Shown in pieces: positions 325-9,643 of a DNA stretch of 10,401 nt (position 1 is the stretch's first letter; every line of letters starts with the position of its first letter). Location of the stretch: assembly GCA_002308195.1 (NCBI GenBank), contig DBVU01000047.1, positions 7,078-17,478 on the forward strand. Reading direction: 5' to 3'. The notes under the pieces are model-generated. The model was given only the letters and a program-made list of their open reading frames with translations, did not search any database and had not been told where the DNA came from. The stretch is from Bacteroidales bacterium UBA1256 (GTDB lineage Bacteria; Bacteroidota; Bacteroidia; Bacteroidales; Paludibacteraceae). Position numbers and translations under genes: made by a program.

Positions 325-1227
325 TTACATTCCAAACTTATACGCCTGCAGCGCATTCTGTAGCAGCGAAGCGATGGTCATCGGTCCTACTCCGCCCGGC
401 ACAGGTGTGATGAAAGCGGCCTTCGGTGCCACGTCATCGAAATCGACATCGCCTACTACTCGATAACCGCGTGAAGCAGTCGGGTCTTCTATGCGATTGA
501 TGCCTACATCAATAACCGTTGCGCCTTCTGCCACCATATCTGCTTTTAGCAGTTTGGGACAACCGGCCGCTACGATGATGATATCTGCCGTGCGGCAAAT
601 AGCTGCCAAGTCGCGCGTTTTGCTATGACATATAGTGACCGTAGCATCGCCTATGGCAGACGAGCTCATGCCCGGAAAACTCAAGTACGGGCGCTGCATC
701 AGCAACATCGCGATAGGTTTGCCCACGATGTTGGAGCGGCCTATGACCACTACGTGCTTGCCTTCGGTAGATATATGATACCGCGCCAATAGTTCACGAA
801 TACCTCGTGGTGTAGCACCGATGATGGAAGGCAATCCAAGCACCGTACGTCCCACATTGGCAGGCGTCAGGCCATCTACATCCTTGCGATAATCGATAGC
901 CGCCAAGATATTCTGCTCGCTGATATGTTCCGGTAGCGGCAACTGGACGATGAAGCCGTCTATGGTGGGATCGTTGTTGAGCCGATGTATCTCTTGGAGC
1001 AAAGTCTGCTCGGTGATGTATTCTTCGTACGCAATCTTCTCCGCCTCGATGCCCACTTCTGCGCAAGCTTTCAGTTTGTTGGCCACATAGGTCTCGCTGG
1101 CCGGATTATGGCCGACGATGATGATAGCCAAGCGCGGAACACGTTTGCCTTCCGCCTTCAGCCGTTCTACCTCGCTGTGCAGTTCCGCGCAGATCTCTCC
1201 CGCTATTTTCTTACCGTCTATAATCAT
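325..1227 (-). CDS. folD: Bifunctional methylenetetrahydrofolate dehydrogenase / methenyltetrahydrofolate cyclohydrolase FolD
   Basis: FolD is a cytosolic enzyme that interconverts 5,10-methylene-THF, 5,10-methenyl-THF and 10-formyl-THF using NADP, supplying one-carbon units for purines and fMet-tRNA. The 300-residue product carries the family signatures: the YVxxK active-site region with Tyr47 and Lys51, FIVQLPLP at 92-99, KDVDG at 115-119, the Rossmann-type nucleotide site VIGRSNIVGKP at 161-171, and PGGVGPMT at 277-284. It is slightly longer than the E. coli enzyme because of an insertion around 178-195 (between MLLM and ATVTICHS), a surface loop in the NADP domain. Its ATG shares one base with the ffh stop codon (TAATG), which implies translational coupling. 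prfA begins 3 nt after its stop. All catalytic residues I can recognise are present. Confidence 0.96.
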   Translation of the reverse strand: MIIDGKKIAGEICAELHSEVERLKAEGKRVPRLAIIIVGHNPASETYVANKLKACAEVGIEAEKIAYEEYITEQTLLQEIHRLNNDPTIDGFIVQLPLPEHISEQNILAAIDYRKDVDGLTPANVGRTVLGLPSIIGATPRGIRELLARYHISTEGKHVVVIGRSNIVGKPIAMLLMQRPYLSFPGMSSSAIGDATVTICHSKTRDLAAICRTADIIIVAAGCPKLLKADMVAEGATVIDVGINRIEDPTASRGYRVVGDVDFDDVAPKAAFITPVPGGVGPMTIASLLQNALQAYKFGM

Positions 1228-2525
1228 TAGCGCTTACGCATTTGCTGCACTTTTTTCATCATCTTGCTGGTCTGCTCAAACTGCTTGAGGAAGCGGTTGA
1301 GCGCCACTATATCTACGCCTGCGCCTTTGGCGATACGGTTCTTGCGGCTACCATTGAGCAGACCTGGATTCGCACGCTCGGCAGGAGTCATCGAATTGAT
1401 CATGGCCTCGATGGGTTTGAACGCATCGTCGCTGACGTCGATATTCTTCATCGCCTTGTCCATACCCGGAATCATGCCCATCAGGTCCTTCATCGAACCC
1501 ATTTTCTTAATCTGGTTGAGTTGGCCGATGAAATCATTGAAATCGAACTGATTGTGGGCAATCTTCTTGCTGATACGGCGTGCCTCGGCTTCGTCGTACT
1601 GCTCTTGAGCACGTTCCACCAGGCTGACGACATCACCCATACCCAGAATACGGTCAGCCATACGCGACGGATGGAACACATCGAGTGCCTCCATCTTCTC
1701 GCCTGTTCCGATGAACTTGATCGGTTTGTTGACCACCGAGCGGATAGACAGGGCCGCACCACCACGTGCATCTCCATCGAGCTTGGTCAGTACCACGCCA
1801 TCAAAATCGATGCGGTCGTTGAACTCCTTGGCAGTATTCACTGCGTCCTGACCGGTCATAGCATCCACTACGAACAGCGTCTCAGACGGCTTGATAGCGT
1901 CCTTGATGGCAGCTATCTCCTGCATCATCTGCTCGTCCACTGCCAGACGACCAGCGGTATCGACGATCACTACATCGTAGCCCAGGCGCTTGGCCTCGGC
2001 TATGGCATCTTGGGCTTTCTTGACGGGATTAGCCTCTCCTTCGCCGGTATAGACCTTCGCATTGATCTGCTCGCCCAGTACACGTAACTGCTCGATGGCA
2101 GCAGGGCGATAGACGTCGCAGGCTACGAGCATGACGCGTTTGTTCTTCTTGGTCTGCAACCAGTTAGCCAGTTTGCTGGCAAAAGTGGTCTTACCGGAAC
2201 CCTGCAAACCGGACATCAGGATGACGGCAGGCGAACCTTTTAGGTTCAGTTCCTGTGCCTCGCCGCCCATCAGTTCGGCCAGTTCGTCGTGCGTGATCTT
2301 GACCATCAATTGTCCGGGACGCACACTGGTCATGACGTTTTGGCCCAGCGCTTTCTCCTTCACCTGGTCGGTGAACTGCTTCGCTGTCTTGTAGTTGACA
2401 TCGGCTTCCAGCAGGGCTTTGCGGATATCTTTGACGGTTTCCGCAATGTTTATTTCGGTGATACGGCCTTCTCCTTTTAGGATTTTGAACGACCGTTCCA
2501 GTCTCTCTGATAGATTATCGAACAT
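1227..2525 (-). CDS. ffh: Signal recognition particle protein Ffh (SRP54 GTPase)
   Basis: Ffh binds 4.5S RNA and hydrophobic signal sequences emerging from ribosomes, and delivers them to the FtsY receptor at the inner membrane. The 432-residue product has the N domain (about 1-95), the G domain with GLQGSGKTT (106-114, P loop), DTAGR (189-193), TKLD (247-250), DARGG (252-256) and GTGE (273-276), and a Met-rich M domain (about 300-432) with the RNA-binding GSRKNRIAKGAG segment at 392-403. I start at the ATG at 2525 (MFDNLSERLERSF), which matches the family N terminus and has a GGAG at 2530-2533. The frame stays open 18 codons further upstream to an ATG at 2579, but that lies inside the predicted -33 promoter box and its residues do not resemble Ffh. 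First gene of the ffh-folD-prfA operon. Confidence 0.97.
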   Translation of the reverse strand: MFDNLSERLERSFKILKGEGRITEINIAETVKDIRKALLEADVNYKTAKQFTDQVKEKALGQNVMTSVRPGQLMVKITHDELAELMGGEAQELNLKGSPAVILMSGLQGSGKTTFASKLANWLQTKKNKRVMLVACDVYRPAAIEQLRVLGEQINAKVYTGEGEANPVKKAQDAIAEAKRLGYDVVIVDTAGRLAVDEQMMQEIAAIKDAIKPSETLFVVDAMTGQDAVNTAKEFNDRIDFDGVVLTKLDGDARGGAALSIRSVVNKPIKFIGTGEKMEALDVFHPSRMADRILGMGDVVSLVERAQEQYDEAEARRISKKIAHNQFDFNDFIGQLNQIKKMGSMKDLMGMIPGMDKAMKNIDVSDDAFKPIEAMINSMTPAERANPGLLNGSRKNRIAKGAGVDIVALNRFLKQFEQTSKMMKKVQQMRKR

Positions 2526-2548: not shown

Positions 2549-2580
2549 CAAAATTACTAAAAATTTTGCACATATGCAAA
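2549..2580 (-). promoter_or_regulatory. Predicted Bacteroidetes sigma-A promoter of ffh-folD-prfA
   Basis: On the minus strand TTTG (2580-2577) is followed after exactly 20 bp by TAATTTTG (2556-2549), matching the known Bacteroidetes -33/-7 consensus TTTG and TAnnTTTG. The -33 box is extended as TTTGCATATGT, as in the other three promoters of this window. TTTGCA and TGCAAA also form a small inverted repeat at 2580-2565. Transcription would start about 7 nt past the -7 box, near 2542, giving a leader of roughly 16 nt. The start site is inferred. Confidence 0.8.
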
Positions 2581-2610
2581 TGTTTGGCTAAAAAATATCA
2601 TCTGTGGTCA

Positions 2611-2649
2611 AAAGTGTCCTTTGCGCGTCTACTTTTTATTCGACACTTT
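2611..2649. repeat. Spaced inverted repeat AAAGTGTC / GACACTTT
   Basis: The 8-bp arms at 2611-2618 and 2642-2649 are perfect inverted copies separated by 23 bp. They lie upstream of the ffh promoter, about 31-69 bp beyond its -33 box. They could be paired half-sites for a regulator or a long-loop hairpin. An 8-bp match over this distance in AT-rich DNA may also be chance. Confidence 0.35.
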
Positions 2650-2789
2650 ACCGAGACAATCACCTGACAGGCATACGAGAGAGTGTGGATAGGTGTAAAA
2701 GTAAAATCGCTAGCATTTGACTTTTTACCCTTTTTAGACTTGTTAGAATCAAAATCTCGCGATATTATGTATATTATATGTATTGGTAG

Positions 2790-2833
2790 GATACGTGATT
2801 ACCACGTTATGACCACGTGTTAACCCCGTTCAC
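2790..2833. repeat. Four phased 11-bp direct repeats, candidate operator upstream of the PagL-like gene
   Basis: Four consecutive 11-bp units start at 2790, 2801, 2812 and 2823: GATACGTGATT, ACCACGTTATG, ACCACGTGTTA, ACCCCGTTCAC. Each has a 7-bp core (GATACGT, ACCACGT, ACCACGT, ACCCCGT) followed by 4 less conserved bases. The two central cores are identical and the outer ones differ at two positions and one position. One unit per helical turn, with 7 conserved plus 4 variable bases, is the layout of operators bound by PhoB/OmpR-family response regulators. The array ends 57 bp upstream of the -33 box of the PagL-like gene. The repeats are visible; the operator role is inferred. Confidence 0.55.
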
Positions 2834-2890
2834 ACATTTTTTTTAGGCGAGCGCGCATCTTTTCGATTTTTTGATATATTTTCTCAAAAA

Positions 2891-2922
2891 TTTGCGTATG
2901 TCAGAAAAAAGCATTACTTTTG
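2891..2922 (+). promoter_or_regulatory. Predicted Bacteroidetes sigma-A promoter of the PagL-like gene
   Basis: TTTG (2891-2894) is followed after 20 bp by TACTTTTG (2915-2922), an exact match to TTTG/TAnnTTTG. The -33 box is extended as TTTGCGTATGTCAGAAA. The -7 box is the left arm of a perfect 8-bp dyad, ACTTTTGC-ACTC-GCAAAAGT (2916-2935). The inferred start of transcription is near 2929, leaving a leader of about 16 nt before the ATG at 2945 and no Shine-Dalgarno. Confidence 0.85.
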
Positions 2923-2944
2923 CACTCGCAAAAGTTCGAAACGA

Positions 2945-4333
2945 ATGCGTAAGATAGGAATAATCATATTGTTAATGGTGTGCTCGCTCGCCTGTTGGGC
3001 GCAGGATCAATGGGCTAATAGCGAGCTATTTGCCACTAAGCCTGAGCAACCGAAGATAGACTATCGTCTGTCGTTGCGGGCGGGTATGATTATGCCTGAC
3101 GGCAAAGTGGACGACATGCTCGGTCAGAAAGGTGAATGGGTAGGTCCGACCATTGGCGGCGAATTTGCTATGACATTTCATCCCAAATGGTCTTCGCTGC
3201 GCGACTGGAACGGTGCCGCCGTAGGCGTGGCGCTGAGTTACTGGAAATTTGACTGCACGCGTTGGGGCGCGGAAGATATAACCGGTCACGCCATTGCGCC
3301 ATACGCCTTTGTAGAAATACCCTTCTACACGCATCGCTACTTCGAGATTGGTGTTCGGCCGGGTATAGGCTGCTCGTTCATCACCAGGACCTACTACAAC
3401 ACCACGACCGAAGAAAACAGATACACCTCGCTACAGGTAGAGGGCGTCAACCGCTCAGTTGGTTCGGTATTCAATTTCTATTTCCCGGAAGCGCTATACA
3501 TGAATTTCCCGATTCGTGATGGCTGGTCGATTGGCATAGCCGGAGGTTGGTACCACATGAGTAACGGCAGTCTGCGTCAACCGAACTCGGGATACAACAT
3601 GTTCATGGGTGAACTGGCCGTGCGCTATCAGCCGTACAAAGACGAGAAACGAACTGCGTTCGGCGAGAGTTACCTGATAGAAGAAAAAGAGGCGGAAGAT
3701 CCGCGCGAGTATATCGTTGCGCCGCTGACGGACGACAAGAAAGAAAGTCTGAATGCAATGCAGAAAGCGCATTGCGAACTGGAACTGTCGCTGAGCGGAG
3801 GTGCCAGACAAGTATATTACAAAGACCGTCAGTCGTTCTTCTGCTCGGAGATGCAACTGGCCGCCTACTGGCGTGCACACAAGATTTTCCGTCTGGGCGG
3901 CGGTGTGGATGTGTTCTACGATGGGGCATATACCGACCGTGAGACAGCGTTTGGCAAGACCTATCTAGGCGGTGCTACGCAGACCGATTGTTGGCGCGTG
4001 GGACTGAGCGTACAACCGGAATTTGTGATAGGCAAATTTACTGCCGGTTTCCATTTTGGTATGTATGTGTTCGACCCTGTCAAGAACCGTGAAGCCAAGA
4101 CCGGAACAGACGAATACAACAAGCTCTGGACCGAACACAAGACACTAGATAAACCTTTGGTTTACGGCTACGATCTGCTGAACGCAGGTAGTGCAGGTTA
4201 TCCGGACCGTTGGCTCTATACGCAGATAGTGCTGCGCTATCGCTTCCCGTATCATATGTTTGCCCAACTGGCCATGAAAGCCCACCTGACGAAAGTGGAA
4301 TTTGTTTCGGCAGGCGTGGGAGTGTATTTGTAA
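2945..4333 (+). CDS. Outer-membrane acyloxyacyl hydrolase, PagL-like (lipid A 3-O-deacylase family)
   Basis: This 462-residue protein starts with a type I signal peptide (basic MRK, hydrophobic core, likely cut after CWA at residue 19) and continues as alternating beta-strand segments, as in an outer-membrane barrel. Residues 204-218 read HMSNGSLRQPNSGYN, matching the H-x-S-N active-site signature of PagL deacylases, where His and Ser form the catalytic pair that removes the 3-O acyl chain of lipid A. The C-terminal MKAHLTKVEFVSAGVGVYL also resembles Bacteroidota acyloxyacyl hydrolases. It is more than twice the length of Pseudomonas PagL: a second block of strands covers about 265-462. By eye, Asn218 occupies the position of the PagL acidic catalytic residue, so the third member of the triad is uncertain. 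The gene has its own promoter and faces the 4451-6621 pair. The family is fairly sure; the substrate is inferred. Confidence 0.72.
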   Translation: MRKIGIIILLMVCSLACWAQDQWANSELFATKPEQPKIDYRLSLRAGMIMPDGKVDDMLGQKGEWVGPTIGGEFAMTFHPKWSSLRDWNGAAVGVALSYWKFDCTRWGAEDITGHAIAPYAFVEIPFYTHRYFEIGVRPGIGCSFITRTYYNTTTEENRYTSLQVEGVNRSVGSVFNFYFPEALYMNFPIRDGWSIGIAGGWYHMSNGSLRQPNSGYNMFMGELAVRYQPYKDEKRTAFGESYLIEEKEAEDPREYIVAPLTDDKKESLNAMQKAHCELELSLSGGARQVYYKDRQSFFCSEMQLAAYWRAHKIFRLGGGVDVFYDGAYTDRETAFGKTYLGGATQTDCWRVGLSVQPEFVIGKFTAGFHFGMYVFDPVKNREAKTGTDEYNKLWTEHKTLDKPLVYGYDLLNAGSAGYPDRWLYTQIVLRYRFPYHMFAQLAMKAHLTKVEFVSAGVGVYL

Positions 4334-4340
4334 AGGGCGA

Positions 4341-4365
4341 GAGGCTAGAGGCTAGAGGTTAGAGG
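4341..4365. repeat. Heptanucleotide tandem repeat (GAGGCTA)
   Basis: Four units of 7 bp begin 7 nt after the stop of the PagL-like gene: GAGGCTA, GAGGCTA, GAGGTTA and a partial GAGG. It forms the left part of the repeat-rich convergence point. The related GTTTAGAGG string recurs in the repeat to its right. Slippage-prone, with no visible coding role. Confidence 0.8.
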
Positions 4366-4373
4366 CCAACGCC

Positions 4374-4429
4374 GTTTAGTGCGCCGATGGCGCGTTTAGA
4401 GGTTTAGTGCGCTGATGGCGCGTTTAGAG
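4374..4429. repeat. Two tandem 28-bp units with GC hairpin cores between convergent genes
   Basis: Two adjacent 28-bp copies (4374-4401 and 4402-4429) differ at one base. Each reads GTTTAGT, then a short dyad (GCGCC-GAT-GGCGC in the first, GCGCT-GAT-GGCGC in the second), then GTTTAGAG. A degenerate continuation follows, with a GCGG-CAAG-CCGC hairpin at 4430-4440 and GTTTAAGGGTTTAG running into the stop codon of the neighbouring minus-strand gene at 4451-4453. The hairpins could act as a bidirectional transcription barrier for the two converging genes. None is followed by a T tract, so a classic intrinsic terminator is not shown. They may equally be copies of a dispersed intergenic repeat. Confidence 0.75.
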
Positions 4430-4450
4430 CGGCAAGCCGCGTTTAAGGGT

Positions 4451-5668
4451 TTAGACGGATAAGAGCTGATCTTCGATCAGATAGACCTCTTCCATCGGAA
4501 CACCATGGTCCACCAATGGCCTGCGGTCAGGACGGAAAAGCGTAAAGAATTCCTTCGCATTTTGACACATCTTACGTGCTTCGCGATAGCTCTCGAAGGC
4601 CATCATTCTGTCGCCACGGAGCAAGAGGCAATGGCCGTAATTGATAAAATCCTTGACGTTGTGGGTCTTATGGTTGCGGATATGCTGCACCAGGATAGAC
4701 TCTGCCAAATCGGTTTTGTCCCACATCAGGTCCATTGATCCATTCAGCAAATAGAGAATCTCCATCGTACGTTGGCGCTCTGGATTATCGTGCACCAGTT
4801 CACTGAAAAGCCATGTATCAGGCAGTATCTGCACAATACCGGACAAGTATTCTTTTTCGGACGTAGGCAACCATTGCTCCACCCCCGTCATCTCCTTGTC
4901 AGCCCCCGTCAATTCTATCAGGTGACGCACCTCTTCGGGCATATCGCGTAGCGTACATTCGCCCGACCGATACAGTTCGATCCAATCGGTATTAAGCGAA
5001 TGAACAATGGCGCAGAGCGTCTCAAAAGCCTGCTCGCCATCACCTATTGCATAGGTGAATGCCTCTTGTACCAAGGGGAAGAAATCGATTCGCACATCGT
5101 AATGAACGAGTAGAATCATGATATTAGCCAGGCACTGCTCGGCCACAATGGCATTAGTAGCCTTCATGCCCTCTATCAGCTGAATCATAGCTGCATCGGA
5201 GAAGCACTCACGCAGGTTTTTGGCCAATCCCGCGACAGACAGAAGCGCCATAGACGCACGATCCGGGTCATTGAGTACCTCGGTCATCCATGCATAATCA
5301 GAAGCAGAGATACTGAGGCACGAAGAGAAATACTGCATGACCGACTGAGGATTATCGGGATTGAATCCATGCAGTGTAGGCGACAGTCCTCGCTGCAAGC
5401 GCAAGGCTGCATATACCTCGTCTGCCAAGCGATAGGCTTCGCCTGTCAGTTCGTCCAACGGATCCTCGAAAACCTCGTCATTAGAAGCCATCCAATCGGA
5501 GAACAATTGCTGATAGCGCGTGAAAAGCGAGATATAATCCGCCTCGAAGGCATTGTTCTCGCCCAACTCGTTCATCCATGTGCGAACAATAGCCAGGCCG
5601 TGCGTGATCATACGCTCGCCCAGTGCCCGTTCGATGGTGTTAACTTGTTCTTCTATCGTCTGCGCCAT
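4451..5668 (-). CDS. Conserved-looking helical protein of unknown function, coupled to the glycosyltransferase
   Basis: I do not recognise this 405-residue protein. It has no signal peptide or membrane segment, is acidic, and looks almost wholly alpha-helical, so it is probably cytoplasmic. Residues about 338-368 (a DFINYGHCLLL helix followed by GDRMMAFESYREA) look like a single TPR-type helix pair, and the rest could be a helical-repeat scaffold. The C-terminal part, about 372-405, is distinctive, with FRPDRRPLVDHGVP and EEVYLIEDQLL. The start codon overlaps the glycosyltransferase stop by one base (TGATG), and a good Shine-Dalgarno, AGAGGAG, sits at 5680-5674 inside the upstream gene, so the two are co-transcribed and translationally coupled. 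That suggests, without proving, a linked role. Its stop codon lies within the GTTTAG repeat tract. Confidence 0.8.
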   Translation of the reverse strand: MAQTIEEQVNTIERALGERMITHGLAIVRTWMNELGENNAFEADYISLFTRYQQLFSDWMASNDEVFEDPLDELTGEAYRLADEVYAALRLQRGLSPTLHGFNPDNPQSVMQYFSSCLSISASDYAWMTEVLNDPDRASMALLSVAGLAKNLRECFSDAAMIQLIEGMKATNAIVAEQCLANIMILLVHYDVRIDFFPLVQEAFTYAIGDGEQAFETLCAIVHSLNTDWIELYRSGECTLRDMPEEVRHLIELTGADKEMTGVEQWLPTSEKEYLSGIVQILPDTWLFSELVHDNPERQRTMEILYLLNGSMDLMWDKTDLAESILVQHIRNHKTHNVKDFINYGHCLLLRGDRMMAFESYREARKMCQNAKEFFTLFRPDRRPLVDHGVPMEEVYLIEDQLLSV

Positions 5669-6621
5669 CAGATCTCCTCTTTGATCAAATAATCGTTTCT
5701 GCTCGGACTATTGCGGATAATCAATTCTGCCAAGAAACCGGCCAAGAAAAGCATGCAGCCGAGAATCATCATCAGGATAGCGATATGGAAATACGGGTTG
5801 ACGCCTACAAGCATAGCTTGTACATGGTTGGAAAGGGCATAGAGTTTCATGCTTCCAACCACGATGACAGCGACGAAACCGATGAGGAACATCAGGCTGC
5901 CGACCAGTCCGAAGAAATGCATAGGTTGCTTGCCGAACCGATTGAGGAACCAGAGTGTCAGCAGGTCGAGATAACCATTGACAAAGCGGTTGAGACCAAA
6001 CTTGCTGACTCCGTATTCGCGTTTCCGGTGTTGCACCACTTTTTCTCCTATTTTGGTAAAACCGGCGTTCTTAGCCAGATACGGAATATAGCGATGCATC
6101 TCGCTGAAGACTTCGATATTTTTTACCACTTCGTTGCGATATGCCTTGAGTCCGCAGTTCATGTCGTGAAGCTTAATGCCAGTGACGCGACGAGCGGTAG
6201 CGTTGAAGAGTTTGGACGGCAAGTTTTTGGTTAACTTATTGTCATAACGCTTTTGTTTCCAGCCACTTACGAGGTCGAATCCATCTTCGCGAATCATACG
6301 ATAGAGTTCAGGAATCTCATCCGGCGAATCCTGCAGGTCAGCATCCATGGTGATGACCACATCGCCTTGCGCAGCTTGGAATCCGCAGTAGAGCGCAGCA
6401 GACTTGCCATAGTTGCGACGGAAACTGATTCCCTTCACGATTTTCTGACTCTGTTCCTTCAGTTGCCTGATCACTTCCCACGAGTTGTCGGTAGAGCCAT
6501 CATTCACAAAAATGACTTCGTAGGAGAATTTGTTCTCCTTCATGACGCGTGCAATCCATTCATAGAGATGTGGCAACGACTCCGCCTCATTATAGAGAGG
6601 CACTATAATCGAAATATCCAT
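5668..6621 (-). CDS. Family 2 glycosyltransferase with two C-terminal membrane helices (DPM1/GtrB/ArnC-like)
   Basis: This 317-residue inner-membrane enzyme has a cytosolic GT-A domain: SIIVPLYNEAESL at 4-16, FVNDGSTDNSW at 38-48 (nucleotide binding), a metal-binding DAD at 93-95 within MDADLQD, LHDMNCGLKAY at 151-161 and an R-x-YGVSKFGL loop near 201-210. Two hydrophobic helices follow at about 233-257 and 276-302, ending in a charged tail. This architecture belongs to enzymes such as GtrB, ArnC and dolichol-phosphate mannose synthase homologues, which transfer a sugar from a nucleotide donor to polyprenyl phosphate for later use on the periplasmic side. Donor and acceptor cannot be read from the sequence, so I give no symbol. 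It has its own promoter, divergent from lptD, and leads the pair with the unknown 4451-5668 gene. A role in LPS or capsule modification would suit the neighbourhood, but that is inference. Confidence 0.9.
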   Translation of the reverse strand: MDISIIVPLYNEAESLPHLYEWIARVMKENKFSYEVIFVNDGSTDNSWEVIRQLKEQSQKIVKGISFRRNYGKSAALYCGFQAAQGDVVITMDADLQDSPDEIPELYRMIREDGFDLVSGWKQKRYDNKLTKNLPSKLFNATARRVTGIKLHDMNCGLKAYRNEVVKNIEVFSEMHRYIPYLAKNAGFTKIGEKVVQHRKREYGVSKFGLNRFVNGYLDLLTLWFLNRFGKQPMHFFGLVGSLMFLIGFVAVIVVGSMKLYALSNHVQAMLVGVNPYFHIAILMMILGCMLFLAGFLAELIIRNSPSRNDYLIKEEI

Positions 6622-6642
6622 AGTTCAAAACTTTTGCGGCTG

Positions 6643-6674
6643 CAAAAGTACTGCTTTTTTTTGACATATGCAAA
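6643..6674 (-). promoter_or_regulatory. Predicted Bacteroidetes sigma-A promoter of the glycosyltransferase pair
   Basis: On the minus strand TTTG (6674-6671) is followed after 20 bp by TACTTTTG (6650-6643). The upstream box is extended as TTTGCATATGTCA. As at the PagL-like gene, the -7 box forms half of a perfect 8-bp dyad (ACTTTTGC-AGCC-GCAAAAGT, 6649-6630), followed by a similar GTTnnGAA leader. The inferred start of transcription is near 6636, about 15 nt before the ATG at 6621. Confidence 0.85.
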
Positions 6675-6704
6675 TAAAAACCAAAGATTTTTGATAGCAT
6701 TTTT

Positions 6705-6730
6705 TAAGAAAAAGTGATACTTTTTTCTTA
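6705..6730. repeat. AT-rich dyad between the divergent glycosyltransferase and lptD promoters
   Basis: The left arm TAAGAAAAAGT (6705-6715) and right arm ACTTTTTTCTTA (6719-6730) pair over 11 bp with one extra T in the right arm and a GAT centre. The right arm ends 4 bp before the lptD -33 box, and the dyad lies between the two back-to-back promoters. It could be an operator or an UP-like element. A terminator role is unlikely here because no gene ends nearby. Confidence 0.5.
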
Positions 6731-6734
6731 GAAA

Positions 6735-6766
6735 TTTGCATATGTCAGAAATTTGTAGTACCTTTG
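6735..6766 (+). promoter_or_regulatory. Predicted Bacteroidetes sigma-A promoter of lptD-slyD(-der)
   Basis: TTTG (6735-6738) is followed after 20 bp by TACCTTTG (6759-6766). The extended -33 box TTTGCATATGTCAGAAA differs at one base from that of the PagL-like gene. The inferred transcription start near 6773 leaves a leader of about 21 nt to the ATG at 6794. It also rules out the upstream in-frame TTG at 6764, which lies inside the -7 box. Confidence 0.85.
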
Positions 6767-6793: not shown

Positions 6794-9643
6794 ATGTATA
6801 CACGTGCGGCAAGAAAAACCGTAGTGACCATACGATTTAGACATATTATCCTACTGCTTACCCTACTCTGCTCTTTGGCGGTGTGGGGACAGAATGACAG
6901 TATCCCTGCGACATCTACGGATAGTGTGTCAGAAGCCGTGACAGATACCACGCAGCAAGCCGATACACCAAAGGCGAAGCCGCAGCCACGCTCGAGCGGA
7001 GACATCAAGTCGCCTATTCATTATCAGGCTAGCGACTCGATGGTGATGACCAGAAACGGAACAGCCTATCTGCACGGCAAAGGCGAACTGAAATACGAAA
7101 ACATGGAGCTGACCAGCGCTTACATCCGAATGAACATGGACAGCAGTCAGATCTATGCCCGTGGCGTGCTAGATACCGTCAGCGAAGAAGTGACCGGAAA
7201 GCCTGTCTTCAAAGACGGCAAAGACAGTTACGAATCGAGCGAGATAACCTACAACATCAAGACGCAGAAGGGTTATATCCGTCGCGTAGTGACGCAGCAA
7301 GGCGAAGGATACATCATGGCCGACAAGACCAAGAAAGCCGATGACGACGTGATGATGATGGCCGGTGGACAATATACCACCTGCGATAACCACGACCATC
7401 CGCACTTCTACCTAAAACTGACGAAAGCCAAAGTCAAACCGGGCGAATACATCGCCACCGGTCCTGCCTATATGGTAGTAGGCGATGTGCCATTGCCACT
7501 GGCTATTCCGTTCGGATTCTTCCCATTCACCGACAAATATTCGAGCGGTCTGATCATGCCTAACTTCGGTGACGACTATACGCGAGGTCTGTATCTGAGC
7601 GGTCTAGGATACTATTTCGCTATCTGCGATTACCTAGATCTGCAAGTACTGGGCGATATCTACTCACGCGGTACATGGGCAGTGCGCGCTCAATCGAAAT
7701 ACGTATGGCGCTACCATTTCTCGGGTAGCCTGAATATCAGTTACCGAAACGATGTGACGGGCGAACGTGGTATGCCCGACTATGCAGTAAGCAAGAACTT
7801 CCAGGTGCAATGGACACACTCGCAGGACGCGAAAGCCAATCCATACAACTCGTTCTCGGCCAGCGTTAACTTCGCGACTAGCGGTTACAACCGTAGCAAT
7901 ATCAATAGTTACTACAACGCTAACCTCTACTCAGAGAACACTAAGAGCAGTACGGTCAGCTACACGCAACGTTTTCCGGAGAGCCCGTGGAGTATCAGCC
8001 TGACGGCCAGTCTGACGCAACGAACCAAAGACTCAACTATATCGCTCACGGCTCCGGAACTAGCCGTCAACATGAGTAGTATCTACCCGTTCAAACTGGC
8101 ACGCGAAGCCACGCTGAAACGCAAGGGACAAGTACGAACGGGCAAAGAGAAATGGTATGAGAAGATCAAGATGAGCTACACGATGAACGGCCGAATAGCC
8201 GTCAACAACATCAAGGAGAAAGATTTTGTTCATTCTGATTTCTTCCGCGATTGGCAGACGGGTATCAAGCATTCGTTACCTATCAACGCCAGTTTCATGC
8301 TATTCAAATACCTGAGCGTGACGCCTACCATCAACATGACGGACCGTATGTATTTCCAACGTGTGGACCGCAATTGGGATGAGGCCCAGCAACAACTGCA
8401 CATGGACACCACCAACGGATTCTACAACGTATTTGACTTCAACGTGGGACTGAGCATGAGTACGAAGATATACGGATTCTACACGCCTATCAAGAAACTC
8501 TTCCCGAACGGACGAGTCGAGAAATTCCGCCACGTGCTGACTCCGCGAATTGGATTTACGTTCCACCCAGATTTTGAGAAGCGCTATTGGGGTTACTACG
8601 GCAGTTACGACCAACCGGTTTACTACAAAGACTCGGTGGATGCGGACGGCATGAAAGTGCCCACCGGCGAGTTTATACATCAGGTCTATTCGCGATACCC
8701 GAACGCTATGTATAGCAATGCGCCACGAGGTATGTCGGCGACGCTAACGTTTGGCCTGGACCAGAACCTGGAGATGAAAATCATCAACAAGGATGATACC
8801 ACAGGCAAACAGCCGTACAAAGTGGTGAGTCTGATCGATAATTTCGGTATCACAGGCGGATACAACTTCGCCGCGGATAGTATGAATTGGAGTAATTTCA
8901 ACGTCAATCTGCGATTGAAATTCCCGAAACTGAACAACTACAGTCTGAACCTGAGTACTTCGCTCGACCCGTATATGTACGAGCTGAACGCGCTTGGCAA
9001 TCCGGTCAGAACCAACAAACAATACTGGAACAATGGCAGAATGCCGCACTGGAACGGTATAAGATGGAGTTTCAGTTACACCATCAGCAACCAGACCATC
9101 AAGAAATGGAAGGAGAATGCAGCCAAACGGAGAGGCGAAAAAGTCAACTCGTCTGGCACGAGTGAAGGAGACGCCAACCTAGAGAGTATAGAGAAAGGCG
9201 AAGACGGCATGGACAAGAACGCCAAACTGGATAGCAAGAAAGAGACGGAAGTGGATGATGGCTATGTCAAGACTGATTTCCCGTGGAGCCTGAGTATCAA
9301 CTACTCGCTCGCATACGCATCGGGAAGCACCTTCGACTACGAGAAAATGTACTATAAGATGCAATTTACCAACAACCTGAGTCTGAGCGGAAATATCGGT
9401 CTGGGCAAAGGATGGAAAGTAAGTGCATCGATGAGCTATGACTTCACGCACATGGCGCTGACCAGTTGTACATTCAACGTCAGTCGTGATCTGCACTGTT
9501 GGAACATGTCGGCCAGCATCAACCCTATCGGGCCATTCAAGAGCTACACATTCCACATAGGTGTGAATGCATCAATACTGAGCGACCTGAAGTACGATAA
9601 GAATAGTAACCAATCCACCAACGCACGTATCGAATGGTGGTAA
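6794..9643 (+). CDS. lptD: LPS-assembly outer-membrane protein LptD (OstA-like domain plus barrel)
   Basis: LptD, plugged by the lipoprotein LptE, inserts LPS delivered by the Lpt bridge into the outer leaflet of the outer membrane. The 949-residue product has a signal peptide (basic residues, then IILLLTLLCSLAV, probable cut near WG-QN at 32-33), a Ser/Thr/Pro-rich linker (about 35-70), an OstA/LptA-type jellyroll (about 74-230; IHYQASDSMVM, GELKYENMEL), then DVPLPLAIPFGFFPF (231-245) leading into a large barrel (about 250-949). It is longer than E. coli LptD (784), as is usual in Bacteroidota. Residues about 770-825 form a highly charged, strand-poor insert, probably a loop. Mature cysteines are at 197, 278, 892 and 902, with no adjacent CC pair as in E. 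coli. The ATG at 6794 is chosen because the in-frame TTG at 6764 lies in the promoter. slyD follows after 14 nt. Confidence 0.88.
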   Translation: MYTRAARKTVVTIRFRHIILLLTLLCSLAVWGQNDSIPATSTDSVSEAVTDTTQQADTPKAKPQPRSSGDIKSPIHYQASDSMVMTRNGTAYLHGKGELKYENMELTSAYIRMNMDSSQIYARGVLDTVSEEVTGKPVFKDGKDSYESSEITYNIKTQKGYIRRVVTQQGEGYIMADKTKKADDDVMMMAGGQYTTCDNHDHPHFYLKLTKAKVKPGEYIATGPAYMVVGDVPLPLAIPFGFFPFTDKYSSGLIMPNFGDDYTRGLYLSGLGYYFAICDYLDLQVLGDIYSRGTWAVRAQSKYVWRYHFSGSLNISYRNDVTGERGMPDYAVSKNFQVQWTHSQDAKANPYNSFSASVNFATSGYNRSNINSYYNANLYSENTKSSTVSYTQRFPESPWSISLTASLTQRTKDSTISLTAPELAVNMSSIYPFKLAREATLKRKGQVRTGKEKWYEKIKMSYTMNGRIAVNNIKEKDFVHSDFFRDWQTGIKHSLPINASFMLFKYLSVTPTINMTDRMYFQRVDRNWDEAQQQLHMDTTNGFYNVFDFNVGLSMSTKIYGFYTPIKKLFPNGRVEKFRHVLTPRIGFTFHPDFEKRYWGYYGSYDQPVYYKDSVDADGMKVPTGEFIHQVYSRYPNAMYSNAPRGMSATLTFGLDQNLEMKIINKDDTTGKQPYKVVSLIDNFGITGGYNFAADSMNWSNFNVNLRLKFPKLNNYSLNLSTSLDPYMYELNALGNPVRTNKQYWNNGRMPHWNGIRWSFSYTISNQTIKKWKENAAKRRGEKVNSSGTSEGDANLESIEKGEDGMDKNAKLDSKKETEVDDGYVKTDFPWSLSINYSLAYASGSTFDYEKMYYKMQFTNNLSLSGNIGLGKGWKVSASMSYDFTHMALTSCTFNVSRDLHCWNMSASINPIGPFKSYTFHIGVNASILSDLKYDKNSNQSTNARIEWW

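Follow-up and report, generated by a model that had tools for sequence, protein, structure and literature searches.

A fixed-register extension of the -33 box in predicted housekeeping promoters of a gut and rumen lineage of Bacteroidales

The window analysed here is a 10,401-nucleotide stretch of DNA from Bacteroidales bacterium UBA1256 (family Paludibacteraceae; contig DBVU01000047.1, positions 7,078 to 17,478 of the forward strand). It contains four predicted promoters of the Bacteroidetes type, which precede ffh, a PagL-like outer-membrane gene, a family 2 glycosyltransferase gene and lptD (Table 1). Each promoter carries the -33 box TTTG (4/4) and the -7 box TAnnTTTG (4/4), and the -33 box is extended downstream by the seven bases C(A/G)TATGT. 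The pattern TTTGC(A/G)TATGT-N13-TANNTTTG, hereafter the strict pattern, has four sites in the window with 0 mismatches. In 200 dinucleotide shuffles, the mean number of matches with up to three mismatches was 0.05, and 0 shuffles had four. When TTG/TAnnTTTG pairs were sought on both strands of the window at spacings of 17-23 bases, these four alone were found, all at spacing 20. An earlier note on this DNA had placed four TTTG-20 bp-TAnnTTTG promoters at the coordinates of Table 1, and all are exact. Its observation that CA(A/G)AAA continues three of the four extensions also holds; ffh has GCAAAA instead. The start of ffh is probably the ATG at 2525; the open reading frame (ORF) listed for it begins at a TTG within the promoter.

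Table 1. Predicted promoters and genes of the window
Feature	Position	Strand	Details
ffh promoter	2549..2580	-	TTTG 2580-2577; CATATGT 2576-2570; -7 box TAATTTTG 2556-2549; exact match
PagL-like gene promoter	2891..2922	+	TTTG 2891-2894; CGTATGT 2895-2901; -7 box TACTTTTG 2915-2922; exact match
Glycosyltransferase promoter	6643..6674	-	TTTG 6674-6671; CATATGT 6670-6664; -7 box TACTTTTG 6650-6643; exact match
lptD promoter	6735..6766	+	TTTG 6735-6738; CATATGT 6739-6745; -7 box TACCTTTG 6759-6766; exact match
ffh (SRP54)	1227..2525	-	Pfam SRP54, 257 bits
PagL-like outer-membrane gene	2945..4333	+	Pfam PagL, 33.1 bits (cut-off 23)
Family 2 glycosyltransferase	5668..6621	-	Pfam Glycos_transf_2, 125 bits
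lptD	6794..9643	+	Pfam LptD_2, 514 bits; probable ATG start at 6794

The generality of the extension was assessed in the genomes of relatives, which are mostly metagenome-assembled genomes with possible binning errors. A scan with LptD yielded 76 loci. Relatives with 58-75% LptD identity are labelled, for example, Paludibacteraceae bacterium, uncultured Bacteroidales bacterium or Candidatus Colicola, and many of them bear isolate names with rumen, omasum, deer, sheep or horse. The remaining loci (42-48% identity) are labelled Muribaculaceae, Duncaniella, Barnesiella, Porphyromonadaceae and similar. Across the genomes of nine relatives, the strict pattern had 344 matches (8-57 per genome) and the reversed pattern 0. 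Among 295 genomes sampled across the order, a match was present in 7 and more than one in 2 (reversed control, 1 overall). Among 150 genomes sampled from the family, 11 had 6-61 matches, 22 had 1-2 and 117 had 0 (control, 0). For 50 of the 76 genomes, the looser pattern TTGCRTATnT-N13-TAnnTTTG was counted as a share of TTG-N20-TAnnTTTG sites. The looser word was present in 38-51% of 381-601 such sites in 27 genomes, 17-32% in seven (L029, L031, L035, L038, L040, L041 and L074), 0.5-9.4% in four (L030, L034, L036 and L076) and 0-3.1% in 12 outgroup genomes. Reversed controls per genome gave 0-1 for the extended pattern and 10-53 for TTG-N20-TAnnTTTG, so the percentages contain some chance sites. 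The extension is graded within the family and almost absent outside it. The whole-genome scan proposed in the earlier note, run here on relatives, shows the extension enriched genome-wide and nearly absent in outgroups. No sign of enrichment that would indicate phage use was seen in 103 viral stretches, of which the 80 listed had one match each.

The first pooled analysis was built on orthologous lptD neighbourhoods and was therefore repeated within single genomes to exclude orthology, using samples of 0.36-0.40 Mb each from three lineage genomes (G434, G254 and G350) and the outgroup genome G478. Sites at spacings 20/19/21 numbered 91/11/7 in G434, 78/6/3 in G254, 82/18/8 in G350 and 36/23/9 in G478. 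Information across -32 to -13 amounted to 16.8, 17.3 and 13.6 bits in the three lineage genomes, respectively, and 4.2 bits in the outgroup. With only the -7 box as its seed, a motif search arrived at TTGCATATnT in 3/3 lineage genomes; TTG, which had not been seeded, was present at 46/58, 31/39 and 38/40 of the sites. The motif totals, which are approximate (58, 39, 40 and 107 sites, the last in the outgroup; our own ORF calls), were 38.4, 34.7 and 39.1 bits versus the 13.7-14.3 bits that suffice to mark the sites, and 17.9 bits versus 12.8 needed in the outgroup. Because the simple ORF caller assigns too much sequence (0.93) to coding regions, the supposedly coding sites displayed the same element and were not used as a negative control.

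Positions are numbered as for Flavobacterium johnsoniae (T-12 A-11 ... G-5; PMC6847099, of which, as of the other reports cited here, part of the text was available), which puts TTG at -35 to -33 and the extension at -32 to -26. The approximate lineage consensus is yTTGC(A/G)TATnT(C/G)aAAAAWWWgTwGTA(A/C)(C/T)TTTGCA, with TTG 20 bases before TA. Letter-specific positions of the extension are -32 (C), -29 (A), -28 (T) and -26 (T), at 0.67-0.95 of sites. Conservation extends beyond the seven bases pointed out in the earlier note, to C or G at -25, G at -13, C-A at -4 and -3, and a stretch from -22 to -17 that is almost exclusively A/T (210/251 pooled sites). The same note gave the extension as CRTATGT. 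This wording fits the window (4/4) but not the relatives, in which the G at -27 is not general (0.07-0.39 bits within single genomes) and C(A/G)TATnT describes the element better. Genome G003 has 46 strict-word versus 245 looser-word sites; set against this minority, the four strict matches of four in the window suggest that its own host favours G at -27. Some spacers are nearly identical between sites, for example CAAAAAAAAGCAGTA.

The extension stands in a single register with the -7 box. TAnnTTTG follows exactly 20 bases on from TTGCRTATnT words in 42/60 cases in G434, 46/55 in G254 and 28/43 in G350, compared with 0/10 in the outgroup, and every other distance is represented by one or two cases, none recurrent. 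In G434, 69 sites lie upstream of genes; at eight extension positions, at least seven were matched in 53 of them, six in 10 and five or fewer in 6. Ten downstream proteins, nine of which we picked for a full-score extension, were compared with NCBIfam. The full-score genes are aroC, efp, the genes for tagaturonate reductase, asparaginase and S16 (rpsP), two without a family, aroB (302.8 bits, slightly below the cut-off of 305) and a primary-sigma homologue, for which the best RpoD model was under its cut-off and the general sigma-70 model over it. The tenth protein, S12, has a low extension score and the word TTTGGTCATGTCA. The single register, together with the mixed housekeeping genes, indicates that the extension is a core-promoter element rather than the operator of a regulon. 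Its enrichment in relatives and near-absence in outgroups complete a picture that agrees with the lineage-specific extended -33 element envisaged in the earlier note. Judged from sequence, this is a lineage of gut and rumen bacteria with a rigidly placed extra word at many ordinary promoters, in DNA that RNA polymerase is not known to read, which points to a previously undescribed trait of its transcription initiation.

At lptD, whose product served to find the relatives, 47/52 loci, the window included, have a TTG-N20-TAnnTTTG site no more than 600 bases ahead of the LptD match. In these lptD-side sites, some of which are in closely related rows, A-29 is present in 47/47 and T-28 in 91%, and the flanks are more variable. 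RNase P RNA was detected in 24/28 genomes. At 24 loci (one second copy left out), TTG-N20-TAnnTTTG lay near the expected place in 16 and did not in 8. In G442, G350 and G008, the site is directly upstream, ~10 bases before the start of the RNase P model, which may begin inside the RNA. In eight lineage genomes (L272, L278, L280, L281, L283, L284, L271 and L276), the site is followed by tRNA-Gly (CCC) and then by RNase P RNA, and both RNAs are apparently placed behind one extended promoter.

Upstream of TTG, the A/T share rises and falls every 10.25-10.5 bases (near 10.4), forming a ladder with peaks near -40, -50, -60, -70 and -80 and reaching 0.99 at -50 in G434. The ladder amplitude from -82 to -37 was 4.33, 4.15 and 3.6 in G434, G254 and G350, compared with null maxima of 1.2, 1.43 and 1.19 (1000 row rotations per genome). 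The outgroup G478 (35 sites) had an amplitude of 1.25, which was attained by 53/1000 rotations and is not significant. The ladder remained after sites with a divergent partner had been removed (3.98 versus a null maximum of 0.85 in 500). It was weaker at -124 to -83 (1.33 versus a null maximum of 0.74) and was not seen beyond -125; a weaker periodic signal was present at +1 to +84. The ladder goes on with CATATnT as its next rung and the A/T tract of -22 to -17 as the one after, separated by G/C at -33/-32 and -25.

Helical phasing is also observed between promoters. Six lineage genomes contain 179 closely spaced divergent promoter pairs, in which 0-30 bases separate the TTG boxes. For the 75 of these pairs that were listed, from G350, G434 and G003, the gap was 6-7, 15-19 or 26-29 bases in 73 and 4 and 14 bases in the other two, which corresponds to a period of ~10.65 with a vector strength of 0.89 (maximum of 2000 uniform simulations, 0.47). 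Outgroup genomes contain 41 divergent pairs (in 19/30 genomes) with a vector strength of 0.57, reached in 0/20000 simulations. This clear though weaker phasing means that the phasing of divergent pairs is not restricted to the lineage. In further pairs, a palindromic box TTGN8CAA serves both directions; there are 7 such pairs in G434, 4 in G350, 0 in G254 and 0 in G478.

The polymerase surfaces that might read the extension were considered against the Taq open complex, for which the available part of the report gives close contacts from -36 to -30 and again from -17 to +9, with a contact-free stretch of -29 to -18 in between (PMC4593229). On this model, C-32, R-31 and T-30 could be readable by sigma region 4, and A-29, T-28, T-26 and S-25 would lie outside the reported contacts. 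The region 4.2 helix LTRERVRQIKEKA is identical in the lineage and in almost all other sequences compared; G010, G010b and G482 (outgroup) differ. A sigma residue that we take to align with E. coli R599 is non-basic in 12/14 rows from genomes that have the element at no less than 17% of sites or many strict matches; K is kept in G254 and G426, and also in G438. The residue is basic in 4/4 weak genomes and in 12/13 outgroup genomes (G401 has Q). The loss at this position provides a weak hint, confounded by descent. The sigma comparison had no sequence for G008 and no match in G337, and a second sigma-like match of G487 was excluded. In 26 rows of the C-terminal domain of the alpha subunit (alpha-CTD), no change tracked element strength; G463, G009 and G466 (no match) and an off-target match of G484 were excluded, and the G001 row is identical to that of G469, a possible binning error. 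In beta-prime (26/29 genomes), 34 columns separate strong and intermediate genomes from the outgroup, and in none of them are the three weak genomes all outgroup-like; the row of G463 is in the wrong frame and was scored against fixation. The contact by sigma or alpha suggested in the earlier note thus finds no sequence support, with an unchanged region 4.2 helix and an alpha-CTD devoid of strength-linked change. A basal factor bound together with the polymerase is a possible reader.

Given that Taq contacts are lacking at -29 to -25 and that sigma, alpha and beta-prime are unexplanatory, a bent or wrapped promoter with an additional base-specific contact is favoured. We consider it somewhat probable that each of the four sites is a Bacteroidetes-type housekeeping promoter with a long, rigid core peculiar to the lineage, bent or wrapped and contacted base-specifically at an extra place. 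The ordinary holoenzyme would read TTG through sigma region 4. The ladder would allow a bending or wrapping that turns the A/T minor grooves toward the polymerase, and the alpha-CTD could hold the upstream rungs. The extra contact would read the letters from about -32 to -25, either by a lineage-specific basal factor attached to the polymerase or by a polymerase surface that is off the DNA in model species. A bolder form, in which a new basal factor or polymerase surface reads the spacer around -32 to -25 in the majority of the lineage's housekeeping promoters while the phased ladder wraps the upstream DNA, is put forward tentatively and is on balance doubtful. It would amount to a lineage-level rewrite of the core-promoter grammar, with intermediate and weak states surviving in related genomes.

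Several observations weigh against the favoured explanation. The ladder is weak in the window itself, where A/T occupies 46/60 'on' and 32/48 'off' positions over the four promoters. The exact looser word occurred in just 19/58, 16/39 and 12/40 sites of the unseeded search, so many promoters have partial versions. rpsL and a few other promoters carry another -33 word, and the comparisons of sigma, alpha-CTD and beta-prime yield no clear protein for the extra contact. The second word, TTTGGT(A/C)(A/G)(T/C), is found at rpsL (L117:2981-3358), at three other G434 sites and at two G350 sites.

The main rival dispenses with the extra contact: CATATnT, S and the A/T tract would be two turns of the phased ladder, giving a curvature or groove width that a normal polymerase prefers. 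The word fits such a ladder: positions -31 to -26 and -23 to -17 are rich in A/T, G/C stands at -33/-32, -25 and about -16/-13, and more rungs lie further upstream. AT-rich motifs at -18 and -28 outweigh the -33 signal in the accessible data for F. johnsoniae (PMC6847099). In the upstream rungs, however, either A or T may occur, while -32 (C), -29 (A), -28 (T) and -26 (T) each favour one particular letter, and we judge an effect of shape without further contact unlikely.

Less probable still is that the word, where it overlaps the promoter, is bound by a global regulator, as the earlier note had also proposed, or by a nucleoid protein. The palindromic box common to two divergent promoters in G434 and G350 would suit such a protein. 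The word, however, has no recurrent alternative distance to the -7 box, the right half of the palindrome has two alternative spacings (CAA after N7 or N8), G254 lacks a shared-box pair, and the genes are of mixed housekeeping function rather than of one class, all of which disfavours a regulator site in the usual sense. A regulon reading was rejected on register and gene content, and a dyad model on the two spacings of the right half.

An alternative sigma factor reading these promoters as a large regulon is highly improbable: a second, near-palindromic promoter motif is reported in the accessible text on Bacteroides thetaiotaomicron (PMC7366714), but the -7 box here is the standard TAnnTTTG, the element is present at the primary sigma gene itself, and sites number hundreds per genome. 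It is scarcely credible, despite the near-identical recurring spacers, that composition, orthology or a dispersed repeat could have produced the pattern as an artefact, since reversed controls gave 0 (strict) or 0-1 (looser) matches, the G+C content of the outgroup G478 (0.478) is close to that of the lineage genomes (0.497, 0.523 and 0.441), the same logo appears within single genomes, and no letter-specific sequence in common was seen far outside the promoter, where mean information between -125 and -60 is 0.08-0.11 bits and that between +31 and +74 is 0.04-0.06 bits (the 0.26-0.34 bits at -59 to -44 being due to the ladder).

Among known systems, UP elements and the wrapping of upstream promoter DNA by the alpha-CTD offer one comparison. 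The lineage promoters resemble them in having A/T rungs at helical steps upstream of the -35/-33 box and differ in that the ladder runs on through the spacer and the -33 box is followed on its downstream side by a specific word. With promoters of sigma-ABfr, the Bacteroidetes primary sigma, they share both boxes, their relative position and the C or A after the -7 box. B. thetaiotaomicron promoters are described, in the part of the report available, as having a variable AT-rich spacer (PMC7366714), in contrast to the lineage spacer of 20 bases with specific letters. The dominance of spacing 20 in three lineage genomes argues for a variant rather than a typical sigma-ABfr member. At sigma-ABfr promoters, transcripts begin 4-5 bases after the -7 box. 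The promoters of F. johnsoniae, as far as the accessible text goes, have a weak, barely visible -33 box and AT-rich motifs at -18 and -28 (PMC6847099). Their A/T-rich stretches are in the same phase relative to the -7 box, but the lineage has a strong -33 box and CRTATnT at -32 to -26. Several variants of the TAnnTTTG motif are reported, likewise in an accessible excerpt, for Flavobacterium psychrophilum (PMC9723704). The MotA box of phage T4 is a comparable sequence-specific element, centred near -30 and read by an added factor with sigma region 4, but according to the available portion of the source it replaces the -35 element (PMC6755090), whereas the lineage keeps TTG at -35 to -33; no added factor of this MotA/AsiA-like kind was encountered, with no search aimed at one. 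GcrA of Caulobacter is a sigma-bound cofactor at many ordinary promoters; in the text available, its methylated GANTC sites can lie upstream or downstream of promoters (PMC7987155), unlike the fixed position of the lineage extension. CRTATnT is not described in the available text of the reports cited here, and a literature search that was mostly at title level and left out subscription journals recognised no description of it.

In one bacterial family, the share of strong promoters with a specific spacer element, located where Taq polymerase makes no contact, grades from nearly zero to roughly half. The sites carry ~20-25 bits beyond what finding them needs. In T7 promoter work, such excess information is said often to mean a second reader, and the element makes the search for one concrete. 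It also provides a promoter rule for gene expression in uncultured rumen Bacteroidales and a sequence mark by which DNA can be assigned to the lineage.

Elsewhere in the window, the gap 3' of the PagL-like gene (4336-4450) contains short degenerate repeats, including two copies of GTTTAGTGCGC(C/T)GATGGCGCGTTTAGAG, as read by eye.

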